From the NCBI GenBank assembly GCA_018692315.1, contig JABHKC010000106.1:1-61558 (forward strand): a DNA stretch of 61,558 nucleotides, given 5' to 3'. The notes beneath the pieces are model-generated. The model made no database searches. It saw only the letters and a program-made list of their open reading frames with translations, and was not told the DNA's origin. Both the position numbers and the translations under genes were made by a program. This document shows positions 12,557-59,027 of the stretch, piece by piece. The DNA is from Bacteroidota bacterium (GTDB lineage Bacteria; Bacteroidota; Bacteroidia; Bacteroidales; JABHKC01). Each line of letters begins with the position of its first letter. Positions within the stretch are counted from its first letter, which is position 1.

Positions 12557-12619
12557 AAATTCATTTTTCAAATCTAACTACTAACTATGAGAATAATTGT
12601 ATTTCTCTGTTAATTTTTG

Positions 12620-12649
12620 CAAAGTTACGAAATTTATTGTAAAAAGCAA
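12620..12649 (-). promoter_or_regulatory. Bacteroidota promoter of the KamA-like gene
   Basis: On the minus strand TTG (complement of CAA at 12647-12649), exactly 19 bp, then TAACTTTG (complement of 12620-12627). This is a full match to TTG-N19-TAnnTTTG. The ATG is about 63 bp downstream. Confidence 0.68.
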
Positions 12650-12792
12650 GGAACACCATAAACACGATTCAAGTTATTAATTGCTAAAAGTCATGATTAT
12701 AGTATTTTATATATGCTAAATATTAAATTTATTAAAATGAAATTAGGAAATTTTGTGTCATCAAATAATTCGATAAATTTCAAGTTCATATA

Positions 12793-12822
12793 TTGTTTAA
12801 TAAATTAATTTATATACTTTTG
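12793..12822 (+). promoter_or_regulatory. Bacteroidota promoter of rpsO
   Basis: TTG at 12793-12795, 19 bp, then TACTTTTG at 12815-12822. It matches the consensus fully, 38 bp before the rpsO start codon. The remaining intergenic stretch (12572-12860) holds only this and the divergent KamA promoter. Confidence 0.75.
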
Positions 12823-12860
12823 CAGCGCTTTAATTAGATTTATTCATTTAATATGAAAGT

Positions 12861-13130
12861 ATGTATTTAACAACTGAAAAGAAAGAAGAGATTTTTAAAA
12901 CTTACGGTAAAAGTGCCAACGACAGCGGTTCAGCCGAGGGTCAGATAGCATTATTTACTCATCGGATTTCGCATCTCACCGAGCATCTGAAAAAAAACAG
13001 AAAAGATTATAGCACTCAACGTGCTTTAATTGTTATGGTTGGGAAACGAAGAAGATTATTAGATTATTTAAAAAATAATTATATCGAAAGATATCGTAAG
13101 ATAATTAAAGAACTTAAATTGAGGAAGTAA
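12861..13130 (+). CDS. rpsO: 30S ribosomal protein S15
   Basis: An 89-residue protein with the S15 hallmarks: GSAEGQIALFTHRISHLTEHLK and the C-terminal VGKRRRLLDYL motif that contacts 16S rRNA helices 20-22 in the platform. Length is exactly typical. The ATG at 12861 gives the standard N-terminus (MYLTTEKK); an out-of-frame ATG lies 8 bp earlier. The rpsO-pnp order is widely conserved; here a terminator separates them, so pnp is expressed partly by readthrough or its own promoter. Confidence 0.97.
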   Translation: MYLTTEKKEEIFKTYGKSANDSGSAEGQIALFTHRISHLTEHLKKNRKDYSTQRALIVMVGKRRRLLDYLKNNYIERYRKIIKELKLRK

Positions 13131-13134
13131 AAAG

Positions 13135-13167
13135 AAAAAAGGCAATTGTTATATTGCCTTTTTTTTT
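13135..13167 (+). terminator. Terminator between rpsO and pnp
   Basis: The stem GGCAAT (13141-13146) pairs with ATTGCC (13153-13158), flanked by an A run before and a nine-base T run after. A 6-base loop. A typical intrinsic terminator just after the rpsO stop; the A and T runs lengthen the stem. Confidence 0.85.
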
Positions 13168-13299
13168 ATTTTCGTTTAACTGAAAATCTAATATTTTGAA
13201 TTTAATTTAACAAACAAACAATTTTATACAATTATTTTAAAACAAAAGTAAACAAGAATTATCCGAAATTGAATAAATAAACAAGACGAGAAAAAGATT

Positions 13300-34300: not shown

Positions 34301-34631
34301 CTCAATTTCGAAGGAGAATATGAATTTCTATATAGAAAAAGTAAGTAGGCTTTTGGAAGATAAAGTCGTAGGCGATTGGTTTTCAGAAAAGTGGCTTGTA
34401 AAAAGAGAAAGTCCAATTTTGCTAAAAAATGGAAAAACGAAAATTCCTGACCGTGTTTTGGTAGATGAAAATAAAGTAATTGTAATCGACTATAAATTTG
34501 GAGATAAGGAAAGTCAGTCGCATAAAACACAAATAAAAGAATATGTCGCTTGTCTCCAACAAATGGATTATTCAAATATTGAAGCTTATATTTGGTATGT
34601 TTCTATTGAGAAAATTGTGATGGTAGGGTAG
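31359..34631 (+). CDS. AddA/RecB-like helicase-nuclease (UvrD superfamily)
   Basis: 1090 residues. SF1A helicase motifs: Walker A ASAGSGKTFKL (about 10-20), Walker B/II FMIDEFQDTS, GDVKQAIYRWRNGDW (III), ILTIHKSKGLEF (V) and YVAFTRAKE (VI). The last 150 residues form a PD-(D/E)xK nuclease: VLHNLLE, then VIDYKFGD and QIKEYVACLQ. This is the layout of AddA, which with AddB resects double-strand breaks. AddB normally lies nearby in Bacteroidota; it is not within this window, and downstream DNA is the module flanked by a copy of this gene's tail. The final 21 codons (34567-34631) are repeated at 42736-42800. Confidence 0.88.
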   Translation: MSKLQIYKASAGSGKTFKLTEEYLLNVLSNENLYKNILSVTFTNKATEEMKSRILSELNNLCKSEKSNYRELISKQLNLENNEIDKRAKIVLSNILHNYSYFSVSTIDTFFQSVIQSFVKEIGLQIGFSLELDTQKILNSAIDRLFQAINKSDTLKKWLLKFIELNIEDGKSWNIKNELLKFSNEILKESYKTFDLAAIVKMSDKHFLDSYMSQLQIIIRDFQQKMVDIGNGAIELANSYSLDTNDFSYGKNGVFGHFINLSTKKKFSYGTRVQEAIDDVSKWYKKSSKRISDIESAFQNGLNQLLISAKETYDKQFYIANSARVILDRIYILGILTDISKNVKEVCEDENLFMINDSAHLLQSVINQNDSPFIFEKTGNRFKHFMIDEFQDTSAMQWNNFKPLILNSLAENRQCMIVGDVKQAIYRWRNGDWKILSQQIEKDVFPFESDVRILNHNWRSRKNVIDFNNSIFSASVRIMQDLFNSKVQESNVEHSFFEKLESQIHKSYSDVFQRIPDNNINDGGYIRCQFIEKDENSKDWKETALINLVSEIENLQNKNFRLRDIAILVRTKAQAEQIADFILTYKNSDEASDRYKYDVISDEALKIDSSEVVQILVLVLRYLNSNKDSLSKITFVYKYLRYHNSTESFNRDLYSVFIYHLQNEENCLFDDFLPKEFSENLLFMSRLPLLELAEYIIGVLNLNKKPEDFHFVHAFLNLIHEFTENDAADINSFIAWWDEEGNTKAISTSEDQDAIKILTIHKSKGLEFKFVFVPFCDWKIDKTGLNSDIIWCKTKIEPFNKLENIPLNYSSKLEETIFSNEYFEEKLKTYIDNLNLLYVAFTRAKEGLITFSPYEQKDKIDNIGNLIQNTISQNSENENSRELIQLDKFWDTDTKCLTLGKIKSQNQTAELKRSDYKILEYPINLSDNRLKLRLKHSEIKELSDESRVNKIQEGIVLHNLLEKIETKEDLLPAVNILISEGSISKENMNFYIEKVSRLLEDKVVGDWFSEKWLVKRESPILLKNGKTKIPDRVLVDENKVIVIDYKFGDKESQSHKTQIKEYVACLQQMDYSNIEAYIWYVSIEKIVMVG
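34567..34631 (+). repeat. Direct repeat, left copy: 3' end of helicase gene
   Basis: 65 bp running up to and including the helicase stop codon. It matches 42736-42800 at 59 of 65 positions by my alignment, with no gaps. Homology does not extend upstream into the gene or far downstream. Confidence 0.85.
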
Positions 34632-34696
34632 ATTTATTATAGACATATTTTCCGATACATTGTTTAAGTATTTCTGAAAATGGCTAAAATATGGGG

Positions 34697-37600
34697 CTAA
34701 TTATAATCCTTAACTACTTTCATGCTCGCTTGATCTACATCTTTAGTAATCAATTTATACCATGGATCAATAACTACTTTCGAAGGTTTACGGCCTAACT
34801 TTATTCTAAGCTTGTTCTCATCTGAATTCAACTTTACCTTTTCAAGGTAAATCTCCTTTTCTTTGCTATTGTACACGCCTATTTCAACATAATCGTTCAT
34901 TTCTGCTTGCGTAGCTTTACCCAGACCATCTGAGTATGTCTTGTTGGCTTCAAGAGTCAGGTTCATAAAGTATTCCAGCTTTTCATTTCTTTCGTATGTA
35001 GCTTCTTTTACTTCAAAATCATAGAAAGTGATTTTTTCCATCCAGTCTGTTACAATATATTGTAATGAGTCAGGAGTTACTTTTCTGATTTCATCAATGT
35101 ATTCTGCTGTTGTCGCATAAGGAGCTCCCTTGAACTTATACTTATTGATAAAATCACTGGTTACTTTAACAAGTTTATCATCTCCTAAATAATCATTCAA
35201 AGCATTCAATACAATTATCCCTTTTTGATAATATATTGCCGACTGATGTCCCCAGACTGTTGCAAGTGGCTGTTCTTCGAAATTCTCATTCTGACGTGAC
35301 ATAGCATATCGGTTCATCTCCTGACGAAGGAATTTCTTCAATTTTTCCTTTCCGAATGAATCTTCAATAACTTTAAGAGAACTGAACTGTGTTACTGATT
35401 CCATCAACATTTGTGCTCCTTCTGTTTCTGCAGCAATTATATGATGAGCCAACCACTGATGAGCCATTTCATGGGCTGTTACCCAAAATGGATAATCTAT
35501 CTTAAGATCTGCAAAATCTATATCCTCATCCTCCTTTTCCCTAAGATCTGCAATAAAACCAAGACCTTCTGAAAATGGGATCATGGCCGGAAATGATTGA
35601 GCAAAAGATCCATAACGAGGAAACTCAATGATCTTAAGCTCCGGATGAGGATATTCGCAGTAATTCTTCGAATAATATGACAGTGAAGCTTTCACTCCAT
35701 CAATAATATTTTGAATATTATACTCATGTCCCATATGATAATATACCTTTATAGCCACAGGATTTTGTGCACTGTCTTCTGGAGTCCATTTGTCTTCTAC
35801 CAATTCATATTTTGCAGATAATACTGCAAAGAAATTTATCACCGGTACATCACTTGCATACTGGAAATAGTTTCTGCCATTTTCTGTCCATTGCTTTTTG
35901 CAATAACCGGGAGCAAGGGCTGTCTGATCTTCAGAAGTGCTAATTTGAACTGATAATCTGACGAAGTCGGCATCATCAGTAATGAAGTTATTCTTTACAG
36001 CTTCTACATCATCTCTGCGATTTTCGATTTCCTTTTTCGGTAGATCATGTTTCTTTCTAAGCTTTTTACTATTGAGCTCTGCACCTGAATTATATCCTAA
36101 TGAAGGTAAGATTCCACTATTAAGGAAAGTCCCATTCTTATTGGTCATTACTCTTACACCATTATTTGTAAAGCCTTTTACTTTATAATCAAACTCAAAA
36201 GTCAGCACTGTAGAATCATCTGGCTGAAGCCTTTGGTTCAGCTTATACATATGGAATTTTTGCATATCATCTTCAATCAGAGTTGAGTACCCACCATCTA
36301 CATTAACTGACTTTACAGTCTCTCTATCCATTGATAGTATCAATGTGTCAAGAGGAGTGTTTGAGGTGTTCTTCAGAATATATTGACCATCTATATGTGC
36401 ATCACCGCCTTCAGGATATAAGTCAAATTTTGTATCGACTGCAGTTATTCTTGGCTGAGTAATATTTTCATATTTCTTATATTTTCTTTCATACTCCACC
36501 ATCCTTTTCTCAAATTCATAAGAACGGTTGAAATCATTTAAAATATTAGTGTTGTAAAAAATGAATCCACTTGTTGTAAGAAAAACTATTAATGATATAG
36601 GAATAGCGATACGTATTTTTGACCAGCTTGTTTTAAAGTTCTTCCATCTCTTAATAAAACCTTCTTCTGTTCCTCTTACAAGAAATCGGTTAGCAAGGAT
36701 TGATAGCAAGACTGCAAAGGCAAACCAATAAAAACGATATATTAAAACTACCCACATACCCTCAGAATATCCATTCATATCCGAATACATATAAGAAGGA
36801 CCTTCACCATAAATGAACAGATTGTTCTGTAAAACTGCACCGGCAAATTGAGCATCCCAGATATAATAGATGATTATTAGGGTATAGCCAAGAAATTTGT
36901 GATTAACCAATATTTGTACAAAAAATGCAAATAGTATTATCAGTATATAATATGTGAATTGTAATCCCAAAACTGATTTAATATACAAGCCAATTTCGAA
37001 ATTATAATATCCATTAAATGCCTGAACAATAACTCCAGTGATAACAAGCATACTTAACATCGAAAAGATTATAGTTATTAGAGCTGTGATCTTAGAGCCC
37101 AACAGGTGCCAGTTATTAACAGGTAAGATGTTTTCTGTTTCATGCACTTTCAGACTTCGTGATTGCCATACCATCTCTCCTGAAAAGAGTATTATAATGA
37201 TCATCACAAACAGATTGAAAGTGCCTCCAAGGATTTCAATTACCTGATAGGTAACAGGGTAAGTGACTGTGTCAAATATCTTTCCTATTGCTTGAGAAGT
37301 GGTGATCAGAAAACCAATACCAATAATCATAATCAAAATAAAGTAAATATTCGTGATCAATCCTTTGAACTCTCTTCTGAACAGACTAATAAAAGACAGT
37401 AAATTATGTTTTAGTCCATAATTAGGTTGAACAGTATTAATTTGTCGGTCTATATAATTCTCAGAACCATTTGTTTGTATATTGTTCTCAAATGATTTTG
37501 CTTTCTTCTTTCTGATTTTAATTTTATCAATATCAAACGAAAAATTAAACCTGAAATAACCAATTATTAAAGTGATAGCACCAATGATTACCCATAGGAT

Positions 37601-38344
37601 ACGATTTAACAGATAAACACTTTCTAATGGAATAGATTGAGTGTTAGCTTCATCAGCAGAGAAATTTGAACTTACTTTCATTGAAGAAGCCATTCCAAAT
37701 GGATCCAATAATGCAGCGAGAGTTTGATTGTCTAAATCGTTGATCATTCTCCCACCTACAGCATAAAGCACATATAATCCAATGATCACAAACCAGTTGA
37801 TTACTATATTTCTTAATAATAGAGTTAATGTAAAGAATAGAGCTGTAATGAAAAACAGATTTGGAATAATACGAGAAAGATAAGTATTGATATATGCCAT
37901 AGGTATCACGTCTCCAAACATATCGCTGTTAAGATAGGGCATCTCTGATCCTATAAGAATTCCAAAAGCAGGTCCAAGAAAAACGAGAATATTAATCAGT
38001 AATGCTGCTATATATCTTCCCATAAGGTAATTGAACTTGCTTACCTGTGTAGTGAAAGTTAATGACAAACTATCATATTTAAAGTCCTTATAAATGATAT
38101 TACTTACAATTCCGGCAGTGATAAAGATTCCAAGAAAACTAAAGAATGATAATACAAGATCAATTACCATTGGGGAGTTGAGCTTGATATTATCTCCTGC
38201 TATTCCTATTTGTATAGCAGGAAAGGCTCCACCCACAGCATTAATAAACATAAATGTCAGGGCAAACATTATTGCAAAGTAGATATAAGTTACCTTGCTG
38301 TTCAATGCTGTACGTAATTCAAACGATATTATTTGTAGAAGCAT
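34697..38344 (-). CDS. ABC transporter permease fused to M1-family aminopeptidase
   Basis: About 1215 residues from the ATG at 38344; the open frame extends upstream into the ATPase gene, but this start follows that gene's stop by 13 bp. Two ABC-2-type permease halves occupy residues ~1-290 and ~325-590 (about twelve membrane helices). The C-terminal part (about 620-1215) is an extracytoplasmic M1 gluzincin: HEMAH at 958-962 and the second zinc ligand Glu982 in MLMESV. M1 enzymes trim N-terminal residues of peptides; the fusion suggests the pump handles or senses peptides, perhaps bacteriocin- or envelope-active. It is the last gene of a three-gene operon. Confidence 0.9.
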   Translation of the reverse strand: MLLQIISFELRTALNSKVTYIYFAIMFALTFMFINAVGGAFPAIQIGIAGDNIKLNSPMVIDLVLSFFSFLGIFITAGIVSNIIYKDFKYDSLSLTFTTQVSKFNYLMGRYIAALLINILVFLGPAFGILIGSEMPYLNSDMFGDVIPMAYINTYLSRIIPNLFFITALFFTLTLLLRNIVINWFVIIGLYVLYAVGGRMINDLDNQTLAALLDPFGMASSMKVSSNFSADEANTQSIPLESVYLLNRILWVIIGAITLIIGYFRFNFSFDIDKIKIRKKKAKSFENNIQTNGSENYIDRQINTVQPNYGLKHNLLSFISLFRREFKGLITNIYFILIMIIGIGFLITTSQAIGKIFDTVTYPVTYQVIEILGGTFNLFVMIIIILFSGEMVWQSRSLKVHETENILPVNNWHLLGSKITALITIIFSMLSMLVITGVIVQAFNGYYNFEIGLYIKSVLGLQFTYYILIILFAFFVQILVNHKFLGYTLIIIYYIWDAQFAGAVLQNNLFIYGEGPSYMYSDMNGYSEGMWVVLIYRFYWFAFAVLLSILANRFLVRGTEEGFIKRWKNFKTSWSKIRIAIPISLIVFLTTSGFIFYNTNILNDFNRSYEFEKRMVEYERKYKKYENITQPRITAVDTKFDLYPEGGDAHIDGQYILKNTSNTPLDTLILSMDRETVKSVNVDGGYSTLIEDDMQKFHMYKLNQRLQPDDSTVLTFEFDYKVKGFTNNGVRVMTNKNGTFLNSGILPSLGYNSGAELNSKKLRKKHDLPKKEIENRRDDVEAVKNNFITDDADFVRLSVQISTSEDQTALAPGYCKKQWTENGRNYFQYASDVPVINFFAVLSAKYELVEDKWTPEDSAQNPVAIKVYYHMGHEYNIQNIIDGVKASLSYYSKNYCEYPHPELKIIEFPRYGSFAQSFPAMIPFSEGLGFIADLREKEDEDIDFADLKIDYPFWVTAHEMAHQWLAHHIIAAETEGAQMLMESVTQFSSLKVIEDSFGKEKLKKFLRQEMNRYAMSRQNENFEEQPLATVWGHQSAIYYQKGIIVLNALNDYLGDDKLVKVTSDFINKYKFKGAPYATTAEYIDEIRKVTPDSLQYIVTDWMEKITFYDFEVKEATYERNEKLEYFMNLTLEANKTYSDGLGKATQAEMNDYVEIGVYNSKEKEIYLEKVKLNSDENKLRIKLGRKPSKVVIDPWYKLITKDVDQASMKVVKDYN

Positions 38345-38357
38345 GATTTTTATAGGT

Positions 38358-39224
38358 TTAATTACGTAATGCTGTGAAATAAACATCTTCAAGACAAGCC
38401 GGTGAATTATCAAAACCATCTCCGGGGTGCTCTTCATCAAATACATGAACCAAAGGTTTTCCTGAATTAAGGTGGGAATAGATTACATTAAATGAGTTTG
38501 ATACATCAGAGTATTCTGCTTTTTCAATCCTTTTTGTCCAGATCTTACCATTAATCTCATTTATTAGTAAATCTGGTTTTCCATGAACAACCAATTTACC
38601 GTTGTTTATAATACCCATATTGTTACATAAGTCGCTGATATCATCCACAATATGTGTAGAAAGAATTACGATTTTCTCTTCGCTGATATCACTTAACAGA
38701 TTATTAAACTTAACTCTTTCGGCAGGATCAAGTCCGGCAGTAGGTTCATCCACTATTATGAGTTTAGGATTACCCAATAGTGCTATAGCTATTCCAAAAC
38801 GCTGCTTCATACCTCCAGAAAATGTGCTAACATACTTCTTTCTGTATTGATAAAGATTCACCATCTCCAAAAGGTTAGTAACACTTTCTTTTCGTTCTTT
38901 CTTCTTAATGATGCCTTTTAGTAATGCATAGTGATCCAATAAATCCTGTGCACTTATTCTTGGATAAACACCAAATTCCTGAGGTAAATATCCAAGGACT
39001 TTCTTTACTTCATCAGATTGCTTTAACACATCTATATCATCCAGCATAATACTGCCGGCATCTGCAGATTGTAATGTAGCAATGGTTCTCATTAATGTGC
39101 TTTTACCGGAGCCATTAGGTCCTAGTAGTCCAAACATTCCTTCTCCAATTTCAAGTGAAAGATCATTCAAAGCCCTAACACCATTGGAATATGTTTTCGA
39201 TAATTCTGTTATATTGAGTTTCAT
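38358..39224 (-). CDS. ABC transporter ATP-binding protein
   Basis: A 288-residue ATPase. Walker A GLLGPNGSGKST, Q-loop LPQEFGVYPR, signature FSGGMKQR (Phe replaces the usual Leu), Walker B LIIVDEPTAGLDP and the H-loop STHIVDD. This is the class that pairs with ABC-2 permeases for export (drug/lantibiotic immunity or Na+ type). It powers the permease-peptidase encoded 13 bp downstream. The gene for a GLPGLI protein lies 54 bp upstream on the same strand. Confidence 0.93.
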   Translation of the reverse strand: MKLNITELSKTYSNGVRALNDLSLEIGEGMFGLLGPNGSGKSTLMRTIATLQSADAGSIMLDDIDVLKQSDEVKKVLGYLPQEFGVYPRISAQDLLDHYALLKGIIKKKERKESVTNLLEMVNLYQYRKKYVSTFSGGMKQRFGIAIALLGNPKLIIVDEPTAGLDPAERVKFNNLLSDISEEKIVILSTHIVDDISDLCNNMGIINNGKLVVHGKPDLLINEINGKIWTKRIEKAEYSDVSNSFNVIYSHLNSGKPLVHVFDEEHPGDGFDNSPACLEDVYFTALRN

Positions 39225-39278
39225 GATTTTTATTTTTTAATATTTGAAATTTGAATATAGAGTGCCGATTTTTGATAA

Positions 39279-39980
39279 TTAATGCGCTCCTTCCATAGAT
39301 TTTTGTATTTCTTCCATATGTTCTTCAGTAAGATCCATCAATTGCTCTTCAGTTACCAGTGTATATCCTTCCGGTTTTGTAAGTAGTTTTTCATCAACCA
39401 CTTTTTCTTCAATACTTTGGAATAAATAGCTAAGCATGTTACTTTCAATTTCAAGAACCATTCCTTCTATTGGTAATAATCCCATAGGAGAATAATACAT
39501 TAAAAGTTCAGGACAATACCATATTGTGAAAGTCATATCATCTTTAGATACCATATTTGCTGCTTTACAGGTGTAACCACCTAATTCTTTAGTATCCTCT
39601 AATAATTCCAGCTTATATTCTTCCGGGTCGAATTCATTTACGGTATAGAACTTCTCTTCACCCAATTTAGTAAATGAGAGCATTTTCTTATTCTCAGCAT
39701 CCAGTAACATATCAGCTGATGATGTGTTGATCATGATTCCATCTTTAGACTCTTCCTTTACTTCCTGTATTCTGGCTTTACCATCTTTAAAATGTAATTG
39801 CATTTTGGAAGATGCAAATTCAGGAATAAAAGCTTTCATCGCTTTCTGAGCACCTTTGAGGTTTGCATGAACATTAATCTTTTGTTCGTAAGTAATAATA
39901 CCTTCAATAATTTTCTGTGCTGAAAGTGAATATGAGATGATTCCCAGAAATAATGTAAGGATTAAATGTCTTTGTTTCAT
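39279..39980 (-). CDS. GLPGLI-like secreted protein
   Basis: A 233-residue periplasmic protein: signal peptide cleaved near YSLSA-QK, then the start GIITYEQKINVHANL typical of GLPGLI or DUF4412-type proteins in Bacteroidota. The middle has KEESKDGIMINTSSADMLLD and the family's segment LGGYTCKAANMV...IWYCPEL, followed by PMGLLPIEGMVLEIES in place of the usual GLPGLI motif. The function is not known; it opens the ABC-M1 operon and is divergent from the kinase gene, suggesting that it is a sensor, substrate or chaperone of the system. Confidence 0.75.
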   Translation of the reverse strand: MKQRHLILTLFLGIISYSLSAQKIIEGIITYEQKINVHANLKGAQKAMKAFIPEFASSKMQLHFKDGKARIQEVKEESKDGIMINTSSADMLLDAENKKMLSFTKLGEEKFYTVNEFDPEEYKLELLEDTKELGGYTCKAANMVSKDDMTFTIWYCPELLMYYSPMGLLPIEGMVLEIESNMLSYLFQSIEEKVVDEKLLTKPEGYTLVTEEQLMDLTEEHMEEIQKSMEGAH

Positions 39981-40009
39981 TTTAAAAGTTTTTTGGTTTT
40001 ATTTTGATG

Positions 40010-40017
40010 CAAATGTA
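40010..40017 (-). promoter_or_regulatory. Candidate -7 element of the GLPGLI-ABC-M1 operon
   Basis: On the minus strand TACATTTG matches TAnnTTTG, 29 bp before the GLPGLI ATG. A well-spaced TTG is not seen; the phased repeats just upstream (on this strand) may replace it with activator binding. Confidence 0.5.
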
Positions 40018-40038
40018 TTACTAATATCAAAGAATATA

Positions 40039-40080
40039 TGTTATCGAAAGGTTATCTATTGTTATCGAGTGTTAACAAAC
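40039..40080. promoter_or_regulatory. Phased direct repeats, probable response-regulator boxes
   Basis: Four related half-sites on the plus strand: TGTTATCGA (40039), GGTTATCTA (40050), TGTTATCGA (40060) and TGTTAACAA (40070), spaced 11, 10 and 10 bp. Such same-face direct repeats are typical of OmpR/PhoB-family regulators. They lie between two divergent promoters and end directly against the -33 element of the kinase gene. Confidence 0.65.
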
Positions 40081-40110
40081 TTGGTAATAATTTAATTGTA
40101 AGTACTTTTG
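40081..40110 (+). promoter_or_regulatory. Bacteroidota promoter of the two-component operon
   Basis: TTG at 40081-40083, exactly 19 bp, then TACTTTTG at 40103-40110. Full consensus match, 17 bp before the kinase ATG. Confidence 0.75.
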
Positions 40111-40127
40111 TTTTATAAATTTTAAAT

Positions 40128-41657
40128 ATGAAGAAATTACATTACATATTACTATTAATGATCTTACCGATAATAGGTGTTATCGGTTTTCAGTCCTACT
40201 GGATTATTAATACCTATAAAATTAATGAGGAAGGCTTTCAAAAAGACATCAAGGCTGCTTTACAAAGTGCTATTAAAAATGATATCATTAATCAGACAAA
40301 GGATAAACTCCCTATGTTGGATAGTACACTGAATGGAGCAGGCCAGATAGATATATCATCTAATATGTATCAATCAGGTGATTCAACTATACTTGAAGAA
40401 TTAATTGGAATGTTGAGTGGAAGTGACACTATTCCTCCTGAAAATGTTACTATTCATATATCCGGAACTGATGATGAAATGATACCTTTCGAAGGTCTTC
40501 CATTTGATAAGCTTCCTGATTCTGCAAAAATTATGGGTGATACGACCTTCATTGTTGAAACATCCTCCGATTTTAGTATGGATGGTTCGTTGAAAGATAT
40601 GATGCTAAGAGTTATTGCTGATTTAACTGGTCATGCAACACAACTTGAATCAATTGATTCTCTTTATAAAGAAAGTTTACTCGAAACGGGACTTGAATTG
40701 GATTATAAAATGGCTCTGTATAAAGGAGGAAAATTTATAGGATCAACAAAAGGTGATTCTGTTGATTTTCAAAATCCAGATACTAAGGCTTGCATTGACA
40801 AACTTTACACTGAGAGTCCTGAGTTAAGAGTTGTCATTCCTGAGAAAGCAAGTTTTCTATTATTGAATATGTGGATGTCTTTGTCTACTTCATTATTATT
40901 GGTTATTGTTGTTATAGGGACTTTCATTTATATGCTTACGGTGATTATGCGACAAAAGAAGTTGTCGGATATGAAGAATGATTTTATTAATAATATGACA
41001 CATGAATGTAAGACTCCAATTGCTACTGTTAGTGCAGCTATTGAATCGATGCAAAACTTTGGAGTATTGGATGATAAAGTAAAAACAAAAAACTATCTGA
41101 ACATTTCCCAAAAAGAACTGGTTCGCTTGAATTCAATGGTTGATAAAGTACTTGATATTTCTGCATATGAGAAGCAGAAAGTTGTTCTTAATAAAGAAGT
41201 CATATATCTTTCTGATATTGCAAAAGATGTTGTTGAGCGTTTCAGATTACAGGATGAGGATAAAACTTCGATTGTAGAAGAGATAATGGGTGATATACAA
41301 ATATTTGCTGATAGGATGCATATTCAGAATCTTATTAATAACCTTCTGGATAATGGAGTGAAGTATTGTGATAAAATTCCTGTTATAAATGTGAAATGCA
41401 AAATAAAAGATGGTATGGCTGAATTAAGGATAAAAGACAATGGTATTGGTATTTCCAAAGATCATCAAAGGTTGATTTTCGATAAATTTTACAGGGCTCC
41501 TGGAAATAGTATGCATTCAGTGAAAGGTTTTGGATTGGGCTTGAGTTATGTGAAACATGTTGTTGAACAACACGAAGGACAAATCTATGTTTTTAGTATG
41601 CCAGGTGTCGGAAGTGAATTTGTAATTCAATTACCATTAAGCGATGGAAGCAATTAG
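40128..41657 (+). CDS. Sensor histidine kinase
   Basis: A 509-residue membrane kinase. TM1 (about 5-25), a ~220-residue periplasmic sensor domain, TM2 (about 248-270), then HisKA with His292 in MTHECKTP (Cys in place of the usual Leu) and a HATPase_c domain with NLLDNGVKY, DNGIGISKD and GFGLGLSYV. It overlaps the downstream regulator gene by 14 bp, a sign of coupled translation. Together they probably sense envelope or peptide stress and control the divergent ABC-M1 operon. Confidence 0.93.
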   Translation: MKKLHYILLLMILPIIGVIGFQSYWIINTYKINEEGFQKDIKAALQSAIKNDIINQTKDKLPMLDSTLNGAGQIDISSNMYQSGDSTILEELIGMLSGSDTIPPENVTIHISGTDDEMIPFEGLPFDKLPDSAKIMGDTTFIVETSSDFSMDGSLKDMMLRVIADLTGHATQLESIDSLYKESLLETGLELDYKMALYKGGKFIGSTKGDSVDFQNPDTKACIDKLYTESPELRVVIPEKASFLLLNMWMSLSTSLLLVIVVIGTFIYMLTVIMRQKKLSDMKNDFINNMTHECKTPIATVSAAIESMQNFGVLDDKVKTKNYLNISQKELVRLNSMVDKVLDISAYEKQKVVLNKEVIYLSDIAKDVVERFRLQDEDKTSIVEEIMGDIQIFADRMHIQNLINNLLDNGVKYCDKIPVINVKCKIKDGMAELRIKDNGIGISKDHQRLIFDKFYRAPGNSMHSVKGFGLGLSYVKHVVEQHEGQIYVFSMPGVGSEFVIQLPLSDGSN

Positions 41658-42333
41658 AGTTTTATATGTCGAAGACGAAGAGTCTTTAGGTATGATTGTA
41701 AAGGAGAGTATGGAAAGTCGTGGCTTTGATGTACTTTTTTGTAAGAATGCAAAAGAAGGTCTGCAGGCTTTCAAAACCATGTCACCCGAAATTTGTATAT
41801 TAGATGTGATGATGCCCGGGATGGATGGATTTGAAATGGCTAAAGAGATAAGGACTGTTGACAAGAATATCCCTATCATTTTTTTAACTGCTAAATCACA
41901 AACCAGCGACGTAGTAAAAGGATTTGAATTGGGAGCTCATGATTACATCAAAAAACCTTTTAGTATTGAAGAGCTACTTGTTCGCATGCAATTTATTCTA
42001 AGAAGAGAGAAGAGTGAATTAAGCAGAGAAGTAATGGACATAATTTTCAATATTGGTAACTATAAATTCCACACCGAAAGGCAGACCTTGCTATTTGAAG
42101 GAAATGAAAAAAAATTGACTCACCGGGAAACAGAGATTTTAAGAATGCTTTGTGAAAATCGGAATCAGGTGTTAGAACGAGATGCTGTATTGATGAAATT
42201 GTGGGGAGATAACAGTTTCTTTAATGCACGTTCCATGGATGTGTTTATCACCAAATTAAGAAAGTATCTTATCAAAGATTCAAGAATTGAGATTGTTAAT
42301 GTAAGGGGGATAGGATATAAATTGATTGATTGA
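41644..42333 (+). CDS. OmpR-family response regulator
   Basis: A 229-residue regulator. Receiver domain: acidic pair D11/E12, phospho-acceptor Asp54 in CILDVMMPGMDG, Thr/Ser and Lys in LTAKSQ and IKKPFS. The C-terminal winged helix has LTHRETEILRMLCENRNQVLERDAVLMKLWG and the MDVFITKLRKYL recognition helix. Overlaps the kinase gene by 14 bp. The phased repeats at 40039-40080 are its most likely binding site, giving autoregulation plus control of the ABC-M1 operon. Confidence 0.95.
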   Translation: MEAIRVLYVEDEESLGMIVKESMESRGFDVLFCKNAKEGLQAFKTMSPEICILDVMMPGMDGFEMAKEIRTVDKNIPIIFLTAKSQTSDVVKGFELGAHDYIKKPFSIEELLVRMQFILRREKSELSREVMDIIFNIGNYKFHTERQTLLFEGNEKKLTHRETEILRMLCENRNQVLERDAVLMKLWGDNSFFNARSMDVFITKLRKYLIKDSRIEIVNVRGIGYKLID

Positions 42334-42895
42334 TACTACTTGGTTTATTTTTCGAAGGTGGACGATGACTGATAAAATGTATTTAGCCCAGATGACGAGA
42401 ATTTATGCTAATATGGCTTAGCAATATTATACTACTAGATTTTTCTGCTTCAAATTGAATCTGGATAGTCTTAAAGTACAATTAGAATATTGGAGCAGCC
42501 TGAAAAGTCACCATATATTTGAAATATAAAAATCAATGCGACTATAATCAATGAAAATCCGGAATAGTCATATGAATTGTTAAAAATTAAAATTACTCTG
42601 ACCTTATCTGCTGCAAACTATTGGTAAAAATATAGTAAAGCCAATACTGTTAAAAAGCATTGTTTTGGGAGGTAAATTTTAATCTAAACATAAGATTAGG
42701 TACAACCTTTCAAAATTTTGGTTATAATAAGTAGAATTATTCAAATATTGAAGCTTATCTTTGGTATGTTTCTAATGAGAAAATTGTTAGAGTAGTGTAG
42801 ATAATTTCAGGTTTTGATTTCAAAGGCTCGAAATTGCCACAAACAGCAATTACTTTACAATCTATTGTTGATAGTTCTATTCATTAGTGCCAGTT
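42334..42895. other. Non-coding junction between acquired module and degraded lipoprotein gene
   Basis: About 560 bp without an intact gene. Apart from the helicase-tail copy (42736-42800) I find only short, stop-rich frames in 42334-42735 on both strands and no recognisable transposase or integrase piece. Decayed mobile-element DNA is possible but not demonstrable here. Confidence 0.5.
42736..42800 (+). repeat. Direct repeat, right copy: helicase tail duplicate
   Basis: Copy of 34567-34631 with six substitutions and no gap, ending in the same TAG stop. Its frame encodes YSNIEAYLWYVSNEKIVRVV, against YSNIEAYIWYVSIEKIVMVG in the helicase, so most changes keep a plausible protein end. No start codon or upstream helicase sequence precedes it. 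Confidence 0.85.
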
Positions 42896-43573
42896 TTATC
42901 TGTAAGCAGCATTAATAATATTTATCTTAGTAAAACCATCTATCTTAATGTTTATCCAGCCATATATTGAATCATTAGCAGTTATAGTTCTAAATCCTAA
43001 ATATTTATTTTCTAAATTACTCCAGCCATATAAATATCCACGATTAAATGTAACCAAAGGAGGTTCGTACGAAAAACCCGTCCAGGTATGACAGAATTTA
43101 ATTTCTGAATCCTTTAATCATACTCCATTGCTATCTACTATATCATGCTGGCTAAGTATAATAGGAATGATTTCATCAGTCGAATTAATTAATGTATCAA
43201 GTACATGTGTGCTATCTGAAAGTTGTGTATCAGTATAAGTGTATATTAATCTCTTAGTAATACCTACCATGATTTCAGTATTATTAATTCCATGTATCGA
43301 ACTAGAAAAATCGCCCCCCATTCCACCTTGATCCACATGAGATTTTGAGACAAATTCAAAATCATTAATTGCATCATTATTGATATCTAACTTATATATT
43401 GTGTGCCAATTATCAGAAGTAATTGTGTCATTTATTTGAATATAATTTGCTGAGTCAGATACTCCAGCAAGGATAAAATCATAATCTATCTCAACTGGGG
43501 TATCATCAGATTTAGTACAATTATTATGTACTAAAATAAAACCAATTAAAATTAGGAACCTTATCATATTCAT
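42896..43573 (-). pseudogene. Lipoprotein gene interrupted by an in-frame TGA
   Basis: The intact first part (43118-43573) encodes 151 residues with a lipoprotein signal (lipobox HNNC near residue 19). It stops at TGA (43118-43120). The same frame then runs on for a further 73 sense codons to a TAA at 42896-42898. That extension reads as a sensible beta-rich protein end (TWTGFSYEPPLVTFNRGYLY..., GWINIKIDGFTKINIINAAY). Hence a 225-residue gene was probably broken by one nonsense mutation. TGA serves as an ordinary stop elsewhere in the window, so recoding is unlikely. Function unknown. Confidence 0.7.
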
Positions 43574-49420: not shown

Positions 49421-51442
49421 TTAGTTTCTGCTTTTTTCTTTCTGAAGAAGCTGCTTGTAGTGATTGAATTTTTCCTCGTCATCCAAACTTAAGTATATGT
49501 TTGATAGATACATCAATGCTGATCGGTCAGATGGATTGATTTCTAAAGTTTTTTCATAAAATGAAATAGCACTATTTAAATCGCCTAATTGCTGTGCACA
49601 AAAAGCTTTGACGAAAAATGCAGGTGAATACAAAGAATTTAACTCTAAAGCTTTATCGGCATATTGGGCTGCAACTTCAAAATTCCCCAAATTTATTTGT
49701 GAATTTGCCATAGAAATATATCCTCTGTCTTCAGGATAAATCTCCAATGCTTTTTCGAAATAGGGAATTGCTTCTAAATTTCTATTAAGCTTTGTAAAAG
49801 CCAAGCCCACATTATAGTAATTGTAAGAAAACTTGTCGGGAGTTATTTCTATAGCCTTCTTAAAATGATAGATACATTTTTCATATTCTTTTCGTTGCAG
49901 ATAAATTTTGCCAAGATTTCGCCATGGATCAGGATGATCGGGATAAATATCAATAGACCTGTTGTAATAAGTAATTGCTATATCCCTTAATTTTTCTTTA
50001 TCTTTTATTTTATCATCTCTCTTTAAACTCCTGATTATTTCGTTTGCATATCCTTTGGTTGCAATAAATGATTTCGGATTTGCATTAGAATCTCTTTCGT
50101 ATAAAGTAAGATTGTCTTTCCAATCGTTGTTTCTTGCTATTGTTTTTAAAGTATATGGAATAAGAATTGCCAGAAGAACAATTTTTAGTCCGATTGGGAA
50201 TTTTGGAATTTTCTTCCCTTTAAAATCAATTTTAAAAACCGTAAACAAGAGAAAAATAATAATTATTGCAAAACCCAGCGATGGAACATACATAAATCTA
50301 TCGGCAACTATTCCCATTGCTTTTTTAATTACATTCGAATACATTGCAATTGTCATTAAATAGAATAAAATTCCATAAGAAACTATATGCTTTTCTTTCA
50401 GTTTTTTCAATGCGTAAATGAACAAAACCAAATGAATTGCAACAGACAGGAACGACCAAAAATTTGCAAAATTTGTTATCGGCACAGTGTCGAAACCATA
50501 ATAGTAGCACATTGGGTGCGGCAGTATAAGCATTTTTATATAAAAGAGTAAAATCCATGCACCTGTACCAAAATGTATCCAAATATTGTCGATAAACATT
50601 AAAGGGTTTTCATAATATTCTTTGTCGCGAAAGGGCGGTGGTAGGAAAAATCGGGGAACATATTTTATCAAAAAAAGAACCATAAATAATATAAAAAATA
50701 TCATTACAATTTTCCATGGAGAAATTTTCGTGAAAAAGTATAGAGTCAAAGGTATCAACGCAATAAATGCAAGTGCTCCTGCTTTCGATAGAAAAGCAAA
50801 AAAGAAAAAGAATATTCCCACGAAGAGATTATAAATTTTGTTTGTGTCGAAATATCTGATCATGAAAATTGTGGCGAGTAAAACTCCAATAAAGCATAAA
50901 GTTTCATCTCTGTTTTTCAAACTATTTACAACTTCGGTATGTATTGGATGTGCAGCAAATAATAGAGTTACGAGAAAAGGAAAAATAATATTATAATCTC
51001 GCATTATTCTTTTCAGGAAAAAGAAAATCAGGATTAGTGTGAAGGCATAGAATATAAGATTAAAAAAATGAGCAGCATTTGGGTTTCGCCCGAAAAAGCC
51101 ATATTCTATTGCATAGCTTGCTTTTACGATAGGCCGATACTCGAAACTATTTTTTTTACCTTTGTCGTAATATGGTGTTACGAAAATTTCACCAATTCCT
51201 TCAAATCCTTTCTGTACTGTAGGATTTGCTCCGGTAACATAATTATCATCGACAGTATAACCATGTGGGATAGTATTTCCGTACAGAATTAAAGAAACAA
51301 TTACAAAAAAGATGGATATTGCAAGAGTGCTTCCAAAAAATTTCTCTAAAAATGATCTGTTTTTTTGAGTTTTTTCAAGATCAACTTTTGCTGGCTTCTT
51401 ATGTTTTTTATTTTGATTTGGGTTATTATTATGTCTTGTCAT
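49421..51442 (-). CDS. TMTC-like GT-C membrane protein with TPR tail
   Basis: A 673-residue protein. About eleven membrane helices fill residues 30-420. The first loop has the acidic pair in YTVDDNYV and a later loop has AHPIHTEVVNSLKNRDE; both are typical of GT-C protein O-mannosyltransferases (PMT/TMTC). The C-terminal 220 residues contain about six TPR units (YYNRSIDIYPDHPDPWRNLG, YYNVGLAFTKLNRNLEAI and so on). The family transfers a sugar from a polyprenyl-phosphate donor to proteins, with TPRs choosing the substrate. It is 68 bp downstream of a paralogue on the same strand. Activity in bacteria is inferred. Confidence 0.8.
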   Translation of the reverse strand: MTRHNNNPNQNKKHKKPAKVDLEKTQKNRSFLEKFFGSTLAISIFFVIVSLILYGNTIPHGYTVDDNYVTGANPTVQKGFEGIGEIFVTPYYDKGKKNSFEYRPIVKASYAIEYGFFGRNPNAAHFFNLIFYAFTLILIFFFLKRIMRDYNIIFPFLVTLLFAAHPIHTEVVNSLKNRDETLCFIGVLLATIFMIRYFDTNKIYNLFVGIFFFFFAFLSKAGALAFIALIPLTLYFFTKISPWKIVMIFFILFMVLFLIKYVPRFFLPPPFRDKEYYENPLMFIDNIWIHFGTGAWILLFYIKMLILPHPMCYYYGFDTVPITNFANFWSFLSVAIHLVLFIYALKKLKEKHIVSYGILFYLMTIAMYSNVIKKAMGIVADRFMYVPSLGFAIIIIFLLFTVFKIDFKGKKIPKFPIGLKIVLLAILIPYTLKTIARNNDWKDNLTLYERDSNANPKSFIATKGYANEIIRSLKRDDKIKDKEKLRDIAITYYNRSIDIYPDHPDPWRNLGKIYLQRKEYEKCIYHFKKAIEITPDKFSYNYYNVGLAFTKLNRNLEAIPYFEKALEIYPEDRGYISMANSQINLGNFEVAAQYADKALELNSLYSPAFFVKAFCAQQLGDLNSAISFYEKTLEINPSDRSALMYLSNIYLSLDDEEKFNHYKQLLQKEKSRN

Positions 51443-51510: not shown

Positions 51511-53376
51511 CTAACTGTCTCTTGCTTTAAGCATTTCTTTAATTTCGTTGGCTTTTTCCATATAGAAATTCGATTTTCGTACATCATCTTTTTCTTTATA
51601 GATATCTGCCAGGTTTTTGTATGCCTGAAAATTTTCAGGATTTAAATCTATGGTTTTGTTGTAAAATTCTATGGCTAAATCTAATTTTTTTGTCTGATGA
51701 TGGCAGAAAGCAATGTTGAAATATGCCGGCGCATAATCATTTTCTATGCTTTTGGCTTTTTCAAAATTTGTCATAGCTCGTTTGTATTCTTTAAAAAGGA
51801 ACATATACATTTGCCCTTTCATGTTCCATGCCTGATAATAATTGGGATATACTTTGGTTGCAATATCTAAGTGTTTGAATGCCAAATCGATATTTCGTTT
51901 ATTTTTTTCGTAAGGAGCACCTCTTTTGAAGGATGCAAAAACTTGCGATTTTAATGAGCCGGCATAAATAAAATTTGCTTTTGCAGAGTTTTCCAAATCG
52001 TCTATATCGGCTTCCATAAGTGTCATTTGAGTATCCCAATCTTTATTTCTATCAATGGTTTTTATGGTGTAGGCAATCATAAGCAAAACAACAATTGCCA
52101 TTATCCCACTTCTTTTTTTCGAAGATAATGACAATTTGTTGGGATTTGCTTTCACTATTTTGAAAAATAAAAAAGTAATAAGTATTGCAAAACCCAATGA
52201 AGGATAATAAGTAAATCTATCAGCAACTATACCCATTGCAGGTTTCAGAAGATTAGAAAAAATAAAGATGGTCATTAAATAATATAAGATTCCGAAAGAT
52301 AGTATATGTTTTTTACGGATTTTTAATATTGCAACGACAAACAATGCCGAGTGAAAAACTACTGAAAATAGCACCCAAAAGTTAGACCAGGATACAATGG
52401 GAATGGTATTAAATCCATAATAAAATTTCAGTGATATTGGAAAAATCATTTGCTTCACATAAAACATTAAAATGTATAAACCTGTGGTTATTTTTGTCAT
52501 AAAAGTTCCATCGTACAACAATGGATTTTCAATATATAAAACTGGTCTTTGAGCACTTTCGAGATAGAATCGAGGAATAGTTTTCGTTAGCCATGCCACT
52601 ACCAAAACACTTAGAGTAAGAAGCACAATTTGCCTTGTTTTTGCTTTTGTGAAAAAGTATAAAACAAGCGGATATACAAATACGAAAACTAAAACTGTGG
52701 GTTTCGACAGGTATGCAATCGAATAAACTAATAGCCCAAAAATTATATAATAAAACTTTTTAGTTTCGATATACTTTACAAAAATAAACAAGGTGCTTAT
52801 TACACCAAGAAAAGCAAGAATCTCGTCTCGATTTTTAAGGCTGGCAACTACTTCTGTGTGAGTTGGATGAGCCATAAAAATCATTGTTGTAGCTATGGAG
52901 AAGAATATATGATAATTGTGTAATATTTTTTTTAGTAATAAAAACAAAATAATGCCGGTGAGGGCATAGAGCAGAATATTTATTAAATGACTCATGCCGG
53001 GTGCTTCTCCAAAAAGCCCGTATTCGAAGGCAAAAGTGGCTTTCACTATCGGGCGATAGCCAAACTTCAGCGGTTTCCCGTCTTCATACATGTTTGCATA
53101 AAGTGAAGTAAACAAAGAGGGAATTGCATCGAATCCTTTTTTAATTTCGGGATTGTTTGTTACATAAATATCGTCGAAAGAATAGCTATTTGGGATAGTA
53201 TTTCCGTAAAGGATAAATGCAAAAACCACGAAAAAAGCAAGTATATAATTGTTCCTTGTTTTTGTATCTTTTTCTAAAAATGAAAGAGATTTTTGTTTTG
53301 ATTGTTTTGCTGGTTTTGAAACATTTTGATTAGCCTTTTTGGTTTTATTTTGTTTCTGAATTTTCTTTTTTCCCAT
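51511..53376 (-). CDS. TMTC-like GT-C membrane protein with TPR tail, paralogue
   Basis: A 621-residue tandem paralogue of the gene downstream. A basic, Lys/Gln-rich N-terminus comes before the first helix (about 45-60). The conserved loop signals are YSFDDIYV and AHPTHTEVVASLKNRDEI. About ten more helices run to residue 420, then three or four TPRs. The C-terminus is shorter than in the partner. Likely arose by local duplication; pair could have different acceptor proteins. See the downstream gene for the family's role. Confidence 0.8.
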   Translation of the reverse strand: MGKKKIQKQNKTKKANQNVSKPAKQSKQKSLSFLEKDTKTRNNYILAFFVVFAFILYGNTIPNSYSFDDIYVTNNPEIKKGFDAIPSLFTSLYANMYEDGKPLKFGYRPIVKATFAFEYGLFGEAPGMSHLINILLYALTGIILFLLLKKILHNYHIFFSIATTMIFMAHPTHTEVVASLKNRDEILAFLGVISTLFIFVKYIETKKFYYIIFGLLVYSIAYLSKPTVLVFVFVYPLVLYFFTKAKTRQIVLLTLSVLVVAWLTKTIPRFYLESAQRPVLYIENPLLYDGTFMTKITTGLYILMFYVKQMIFPISLKFYYGFNTIPIVSWSNFWVLFSVVFHSALFVVAILKIRKKHILSFGILYYLMTIFIFSNLLKPAMGIVADRFTYYPSLGFAILITFLFFKIVKANPNKLSLSSKKRSGIMAIVVLLMIAYTIKTIDRNKDWDTQMTLMEADIDDLENSAKANFIYAGSLKSQVFASFKRGAPYEKNKRNIDLAFKHLDIATKVYPNYYQAWNMKGQMYMFLFKEYKRAMTNFEKAKSIENDYAPAYFNIAFCHHQTKKLDLAIEFYNKTIDLNPENFQAYKNLADIYKEKDDVRKSNFYMEKANEIKEMLKARDS

Positions 53377-58944: not shown

Positions 58945-58963
58945 ACAAGCTGAAAATTTGACT

Positions 58964-59004
58964 AAAAAAAACGTCCGAAGACTTATTCTCCGGACGTTTT
59001 TTTT
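58964..59004. terminator. Bidirectional terminator
   Basis: AAACGTCCGAAG and CTCCGGACGTTT form a stem around a short loop (left arm ends 58980, right arm begins 58989), with A and T runs at the two sides. Serves the OMP (+) and AOR (-) genes, which converge here. Confidence 0.9.
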
Positions 59005-59027
59005 GCTTGCAAATTTAAGTTTGCTTT

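Follow-up and report, generated by a model that had tools for sequence, protein, structure and literature searches.

A five-gene ABC–M1 transporter and two-component unit lies between two direct copies of an addA 3' end in a Bacteroidota bacterium

The window, by which we mean the whole stretch of 61,558 nucleotides analysed here from contig JABHKC010000106.1 of a Bacteroidota bacterium, contains an addA/recB-like helicase-nuclease gene followed by a block of five genes, beyond which a second copy of the helicase gene's final 65 bp lies in a stretch of decaying genes (Table 1). The open reading frame of the permease in the block begins at 38446; its relatives align only from about residue 33, and we therefore place its start at 38344, where the ATG is probably the true initiation codon. 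The response regulator scores 274 bits against the NCBIfam RprY model, which is below the cut-off of 370. The initial annotation had noted that no integrase lies between the two copies, and this is borne out by Pfam and NCBIfam, which assign the five genes to other families. Pfam searches detected no transposase or integrase between the copies and no recognisable remnant of one was found in 42334–43117; no tRNA was found between the copies, and an Rfam search was likewise empty. Three features elsewhere in the window were also observed. The apparent intergenic gap at 12572–13299 seems by eye to hold a short gene resembling that for ribosomal protein S15 (rpsO), a 63-bp near-palindrome (58954–59016, within 58945–59027) between convergent genes is probably a strong terminator hairpin, and the genes at 49421–51442 and 51511–53376 share DNA stretches of approximately 75% identity (50244–50394 and 52163–52313) and are probably tandem paralogues.

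Table 1. Features of the addA locus and of the block that follows it
Feature	Position	Strand	Evidence and remarks
addA/recB-like helicase-nuclease gene, 1090 aa	31359..34631	+	Pfam UvrD-helicase, UvrD_C, weak Cas4-like nuclease end; NCBIfam RecB-like helicase; 3' end duplicated
Left repeat copy	34567..34631	+	3'-terminal 65 bp of addA with its TAG; self-BLAST
Permease fused to M1-peptidase-like domain	34697..38344	-	Pfam Peptidase_M1
ABC transporter ATPase	38358..39224	-	Pfam ABC_tran
GLPGLI family protein	39279..39980	-	NCBIfam TIGR01200, above cut-off
Sensor histidine kinase	40128..41657	+	Pfam HisKA and HATPase_c; divergent from ABC operon
Response regulator, RprY-like	41644..42333	+	Pfam Response_reg and Trans_reg_C
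MBOAT O-acyltransferase pseudogene	42480..42660	-	DNA match and tblastn against intact MBOAT gene at G000:C4
Right repeat copy of addA 3' end	42736..42800	+	Attached to no gene; 59/65 identical to 34567-34631
Small lipoprotein-like gene	42896..43573	-	In-frame TGA at 43118-43120; no Pfam family; convergent with right copy

The recurrence of the helicase tail was reproduced exactly by self-BLAST, both in the coordinates first reported and in the ungapped identity of 59 of 65 bases in direct orientation. The match runs 2 bp beyond the stop codon (TAGAT), giving 67 bp at 91% identity (E 9e-20), and similarity between the copies drops to background immediately 5' of 34567 and 42736. A search of the whole assembly found these two copies and no third, and none was found in viral contigs; a direct repeat of the att type (65–67 bp, 91% identity, two copies in the genome) is thus present at both boundaries of the block. 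At 9% divergence the copies are not a fresh att pair. Five of the six base differences between them are non-synonymous, and the encoded peptides (YSNIEAYIWYVSIEKIVMVG and YSNIEAYLWYVSNEKIVRVV) differ at four residues. It had been pointed out that the right copy keeps the reading frame and the TAG, which is correct; however, given the preponderance of non-synonymous differences, this does not count as evidence that the right copy is under selection, and the conservation of frame and stop simply follows from the ungapped identity. The accompanying statement that no helicase sequence precedes the right copy was upheld by tblastn of AddA against 42334–43117, in which only residues 1070–1089 rose above noise.

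The addA gene has native-looking codon use and is complete, with its stop at 34631. The C-terminal end of AddA can be aligned with about 106 relatives through to its last residues, so the left copy does represent the true end of a gene. A profile built from the C-termini of 106 relatives favoured the right copy as the native one by 4 bits, a preference too small to decide the matter; a native origin of the right copy would be compatible with this score, which is no proof of it. The nearest AddA relative, among 59 other families of the order and a collection of species-level genomes, is only 45% identical.

The 402 bp between the response regulator gene and the right copy are not blank, as the initial annotation had overlooked a degraded MBOAT gene. 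Its codons 1–15 lie at 42660–42616 and are followed by codons 220–255 at 42587–42480, so that approximately 600 bp are missing internally when compared with the intact MBOAT gene elsewhere in the genome; the two pieces score 40.8 and 28.5 bits, whereas the highest-scoring shuffled control reached 26.9. On the other side of the right copy, the frame of the lipoprotein-like gene remains open for approximately 74 codons past its TGA, to a TAA at 42896–42898, and this gene looks like a recent pseudogene or the product of a sequence error. The right copy therefore sits among decaying genes. In the same area, the 30 bp at 42798–42827 resemble an internal stretch of a cas3 gene on contig C133 (29/32, 2-bp gap, E 5e-4), which is likely a chance match.

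Base composition and codon use were compared between the block and the rest of the genome, as had been proposed. The GC content of the block is 33.0%; the left and right flanks have 30.8% and 32.4%, respectively, and a genome sample has 32.0%. The impression that the block is less AT-biased than its flanks is thus correct in direction, but the effect is weak and not decisive, and GC does not mark the block as unlike its host. Codon use does deviate. In a test in which gene blocks of similar size from approximately 0.5 Mb of the genome were each left out of their own background, the deviation of the five-gene block was 0.0846 per codon (mean of the 165 other blocks 0.0269, sd 0.0119), the excess being mainly in AAG and ATC. 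This makes it the second most deviant of 166 blocks, and the only block with a higher value lies on contig C19, which carries an integrase fragment.

The phyletic pattern of the unit is similarly irregular. Within the class, 102 of 395 genomes have strong relatives of the M1-permease, but within the window's own order these occur in just 3 of the 59 other families; the M1-permease is therefore rare in the order and common in the class. The GLPGLI gene has a single good relative among the 395 class genomes, in G099, which belongs to another order, and a phylum-wide draw at E 1e-18 returned none besides the window itself. The whole five-gene unit was found in only one other genome, again G099 (L199), where all five are arranged in the same divergent order, with the response regulator and kinase on one side and the GLPGLI, ABC and M1 genes on the other. 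There, however, the unit lies between unrelated genes and has no flanking repeats, which indicates no tendency of the unit itself to use the addA site. Phylogenetic trees pair the window with G099 for both the M1-permease (SH-aLRT 100) and the ABC ATPase (SH-aLRT 98), and place the other copies of the window's order elsewhere; protein identity between the two units is 35–64%, and these copies are therefore not recent transfers between each other. M1-permeases were absent from viral contigs, and plasmid records held only distant relatives (< 32% identity). We found no paper that joins GLPGLI proteins with M1 permeases. Judged from these comparisons, the unit behaves as a conserved pair of operons with patchy distribution, and it is this pattern together with the deviant codon use that gives the five genes between the repeats the appearance of acquired DNA.

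Among the addA loci of 108 relatives, none carries a duplicated addA tail beyond short or low-complexity matches, and neither the block nor the genes to the right of it are found next to addA in any of them. The initial annotation had allowed that related genomes might all share this gene order, which is hereby excluded. By eye, a radical-SAM gene and an AddB-like gene are found downstream of addA in several of these loci. Other elements sharing the 65-bp boundary, for which a search had also been suggested, were found neither in the genome nor in viral contigs nor at the 108 addA loci. In approximately 560 kb of the genome, including contigs that bear integrase genes, no second gene 3' end with an intergenic twin was detected, and the direct repeats at gene 3' ends on the integrase-bearing contigs included no comparable gene-tail pair. 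The nearest similar case in the genome is contig C240, which has tandem-duplicated genes with leftover fragments; a gene-start region there is repeated upstream of the neighbouring gene among the tandem duplicates (L232 17323–17399 and 18845–18921). This repeat is another sign in the genome of duplication followed by decay.

We propose, at a probability of just under one half, that the 3' end of addA was the entry point of foreign DNA that brought a substitute tail with it, probably by site-specific integration through a recombinase that has since been lost. The foreign segment would have comprised the M1-permease, ABC ATPase and GLPGLI genes on one strand and the divergent kinase and regulator genes. 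The incoming DNA would have supplied its own version of the last 65 bp, so that the left tail would be the substitute that completes addA, while the native tail would have been displaced to the far right, there to drift as non-coding DNA. The likeliest route would be Campbell-type integration of a circular element with an attP that resembled the addA 3' end. The recombinase would have been lost later, probably in the same deletions that truncated the MBOAT gene next to the right copy, the decaying stretch being a possible place for such a loss. We infer the identity of the native copy, the circular intermediate, and the recombinase and its loss. Insertion is favoured by the repeat being flush with the stop codon (+2 bp), which is expected if an insertion supplies the tail and would arise from an arbitrary duplication only by luck. 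Counting against it are the lack of an integrase, transposase or remnant between the copies, the 9% divergence, and a GC content near the genome mean; a history without integration would likewise be consistent with the pseudogenes around the right copy. The initial annotation had already read the locus as an integrated element with a replacement tail; this reading has gained from the foreign codon use, the phyletic pattern and the flush stop, while neither an integrase nor a second element was found to go with it.

The MBOAT pseudogene and the neighbour with its in-frame stop make it conceivable that the right copy is instead what remains of a second addA gene, which once lay beside the MBOAT gene at the right end and was deleted down to its last 65 bp, the block having arrived or stayed independently. 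This is a serious rival, although we regard it as rather unlikely. The right copy does lie among remnants, tandem duplicates with leftover fragments also occur on C240 in the same genome, and a predominance of non-synonymous differences in the tail is as expected for drifting DNA. However, the identity ends 2 bp past the stop and, at its other end, breaks off within a few bases, where random ends would rarely fall, so that breakpoints would have had to coincide fortuitously with the stop codon and with a position immediately ahead of the conserved tail motif; tblastn revealed no further stretch of AddA in 42334–43117, and the approximately 560 kb screened contain no second gene 3' end with an intergenic twin.

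A further explanation dispenses with an integrase altogether. Homology-anchored but otherwise illegitimate joins of donor DNA are known from naturally transformable bacteria, and linear DNA of a related strain, carrying addA and the block behind it, could have recombined by homology inside addA and joined at a random break on the other side. If that break lay 65 bp short of the native stop, the donor would have contributed the left tail and the recipient the right one. Such a join accounts for the arbitrary left edge at 42736, with nothing similar before it, as well as for the missing recombinase and the 9% divergence, and a conserved coding tail followed by diverged intergenic DNA would explain why the match ends flush with the stop codon. 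It requires, however, that the block already followed addA in the donor, an arrangement absent from the addA loci of the relatives, and we consider this explanation improbable, slightly more so than an eroded duplication.

Much less probable again is a general arrangement in which addA-like genes serve as att sites for an as yet undescribed integrase-free element, encoding signalling and ABC–M1 export functions and moved by a recombinase acting in trans. The integrase-bearing contigs, having no comparable gene-tail pair, offer no candidate for such an enzyme. Chance similarity or an assembly artefact can practically be dismissed, for although the assembly is fragmented (248 contigs), an E value of 9e-20 over 67 bp argues against chance and the six differences between the copies rule out a repeated read or a misjoin of one sequence.

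Insertion at the 3' ends of protein-coding genes is already known, and this general picture is unchanged. In Thaumarchaeota, 3'-distal portions of protein-coding genes serve as the target for 14 of 68 integrated elements (PMC6563490), and many genomic islands reconstitute the gene that they enter (PMC12884075). The addA locus resembles these islands in having a repeat at both ends, one copy of which completes the target, and a cargo of foreign character, but differs in that the block has no integrase, replication or transfer gene and its copies are only 91% identical. Within the Bacteroidota, the 10K genomic island of Riemerella anatipestifer (PMC6764341) is comparable in size (about 10 kb) and in its direct repeat of 53 bp, but its target is an Arg-tRNA gene, its repeat is perfect, its tyrosine integrase is active and its excision has been proven. 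The locus works like an island at the 3' end of a protein-coding gene, yet cannot be filed as one, since an integrase was sought and not found and the search for an empty site turned up no relative closer than 45% identity in AddA. The earlier remark that no described element of this kind was known at an addA-like gene agrees with our literature search, in which none of the papers retrieved recorded one at addA or recB.

If the insertion is real, a gene for a recombination-repair helicase joins the protein-coding 3' ends known as landing sites, and an acquired transporter and sensor unit can outlast the decay of the machinery that brought it. The divergent unit of GLPGLI, ABC, M1-permease and two-component genes, occurring in two distant members of the Bacteroidia, provides a lead on the stimuli to which M1-fused permeases respond.
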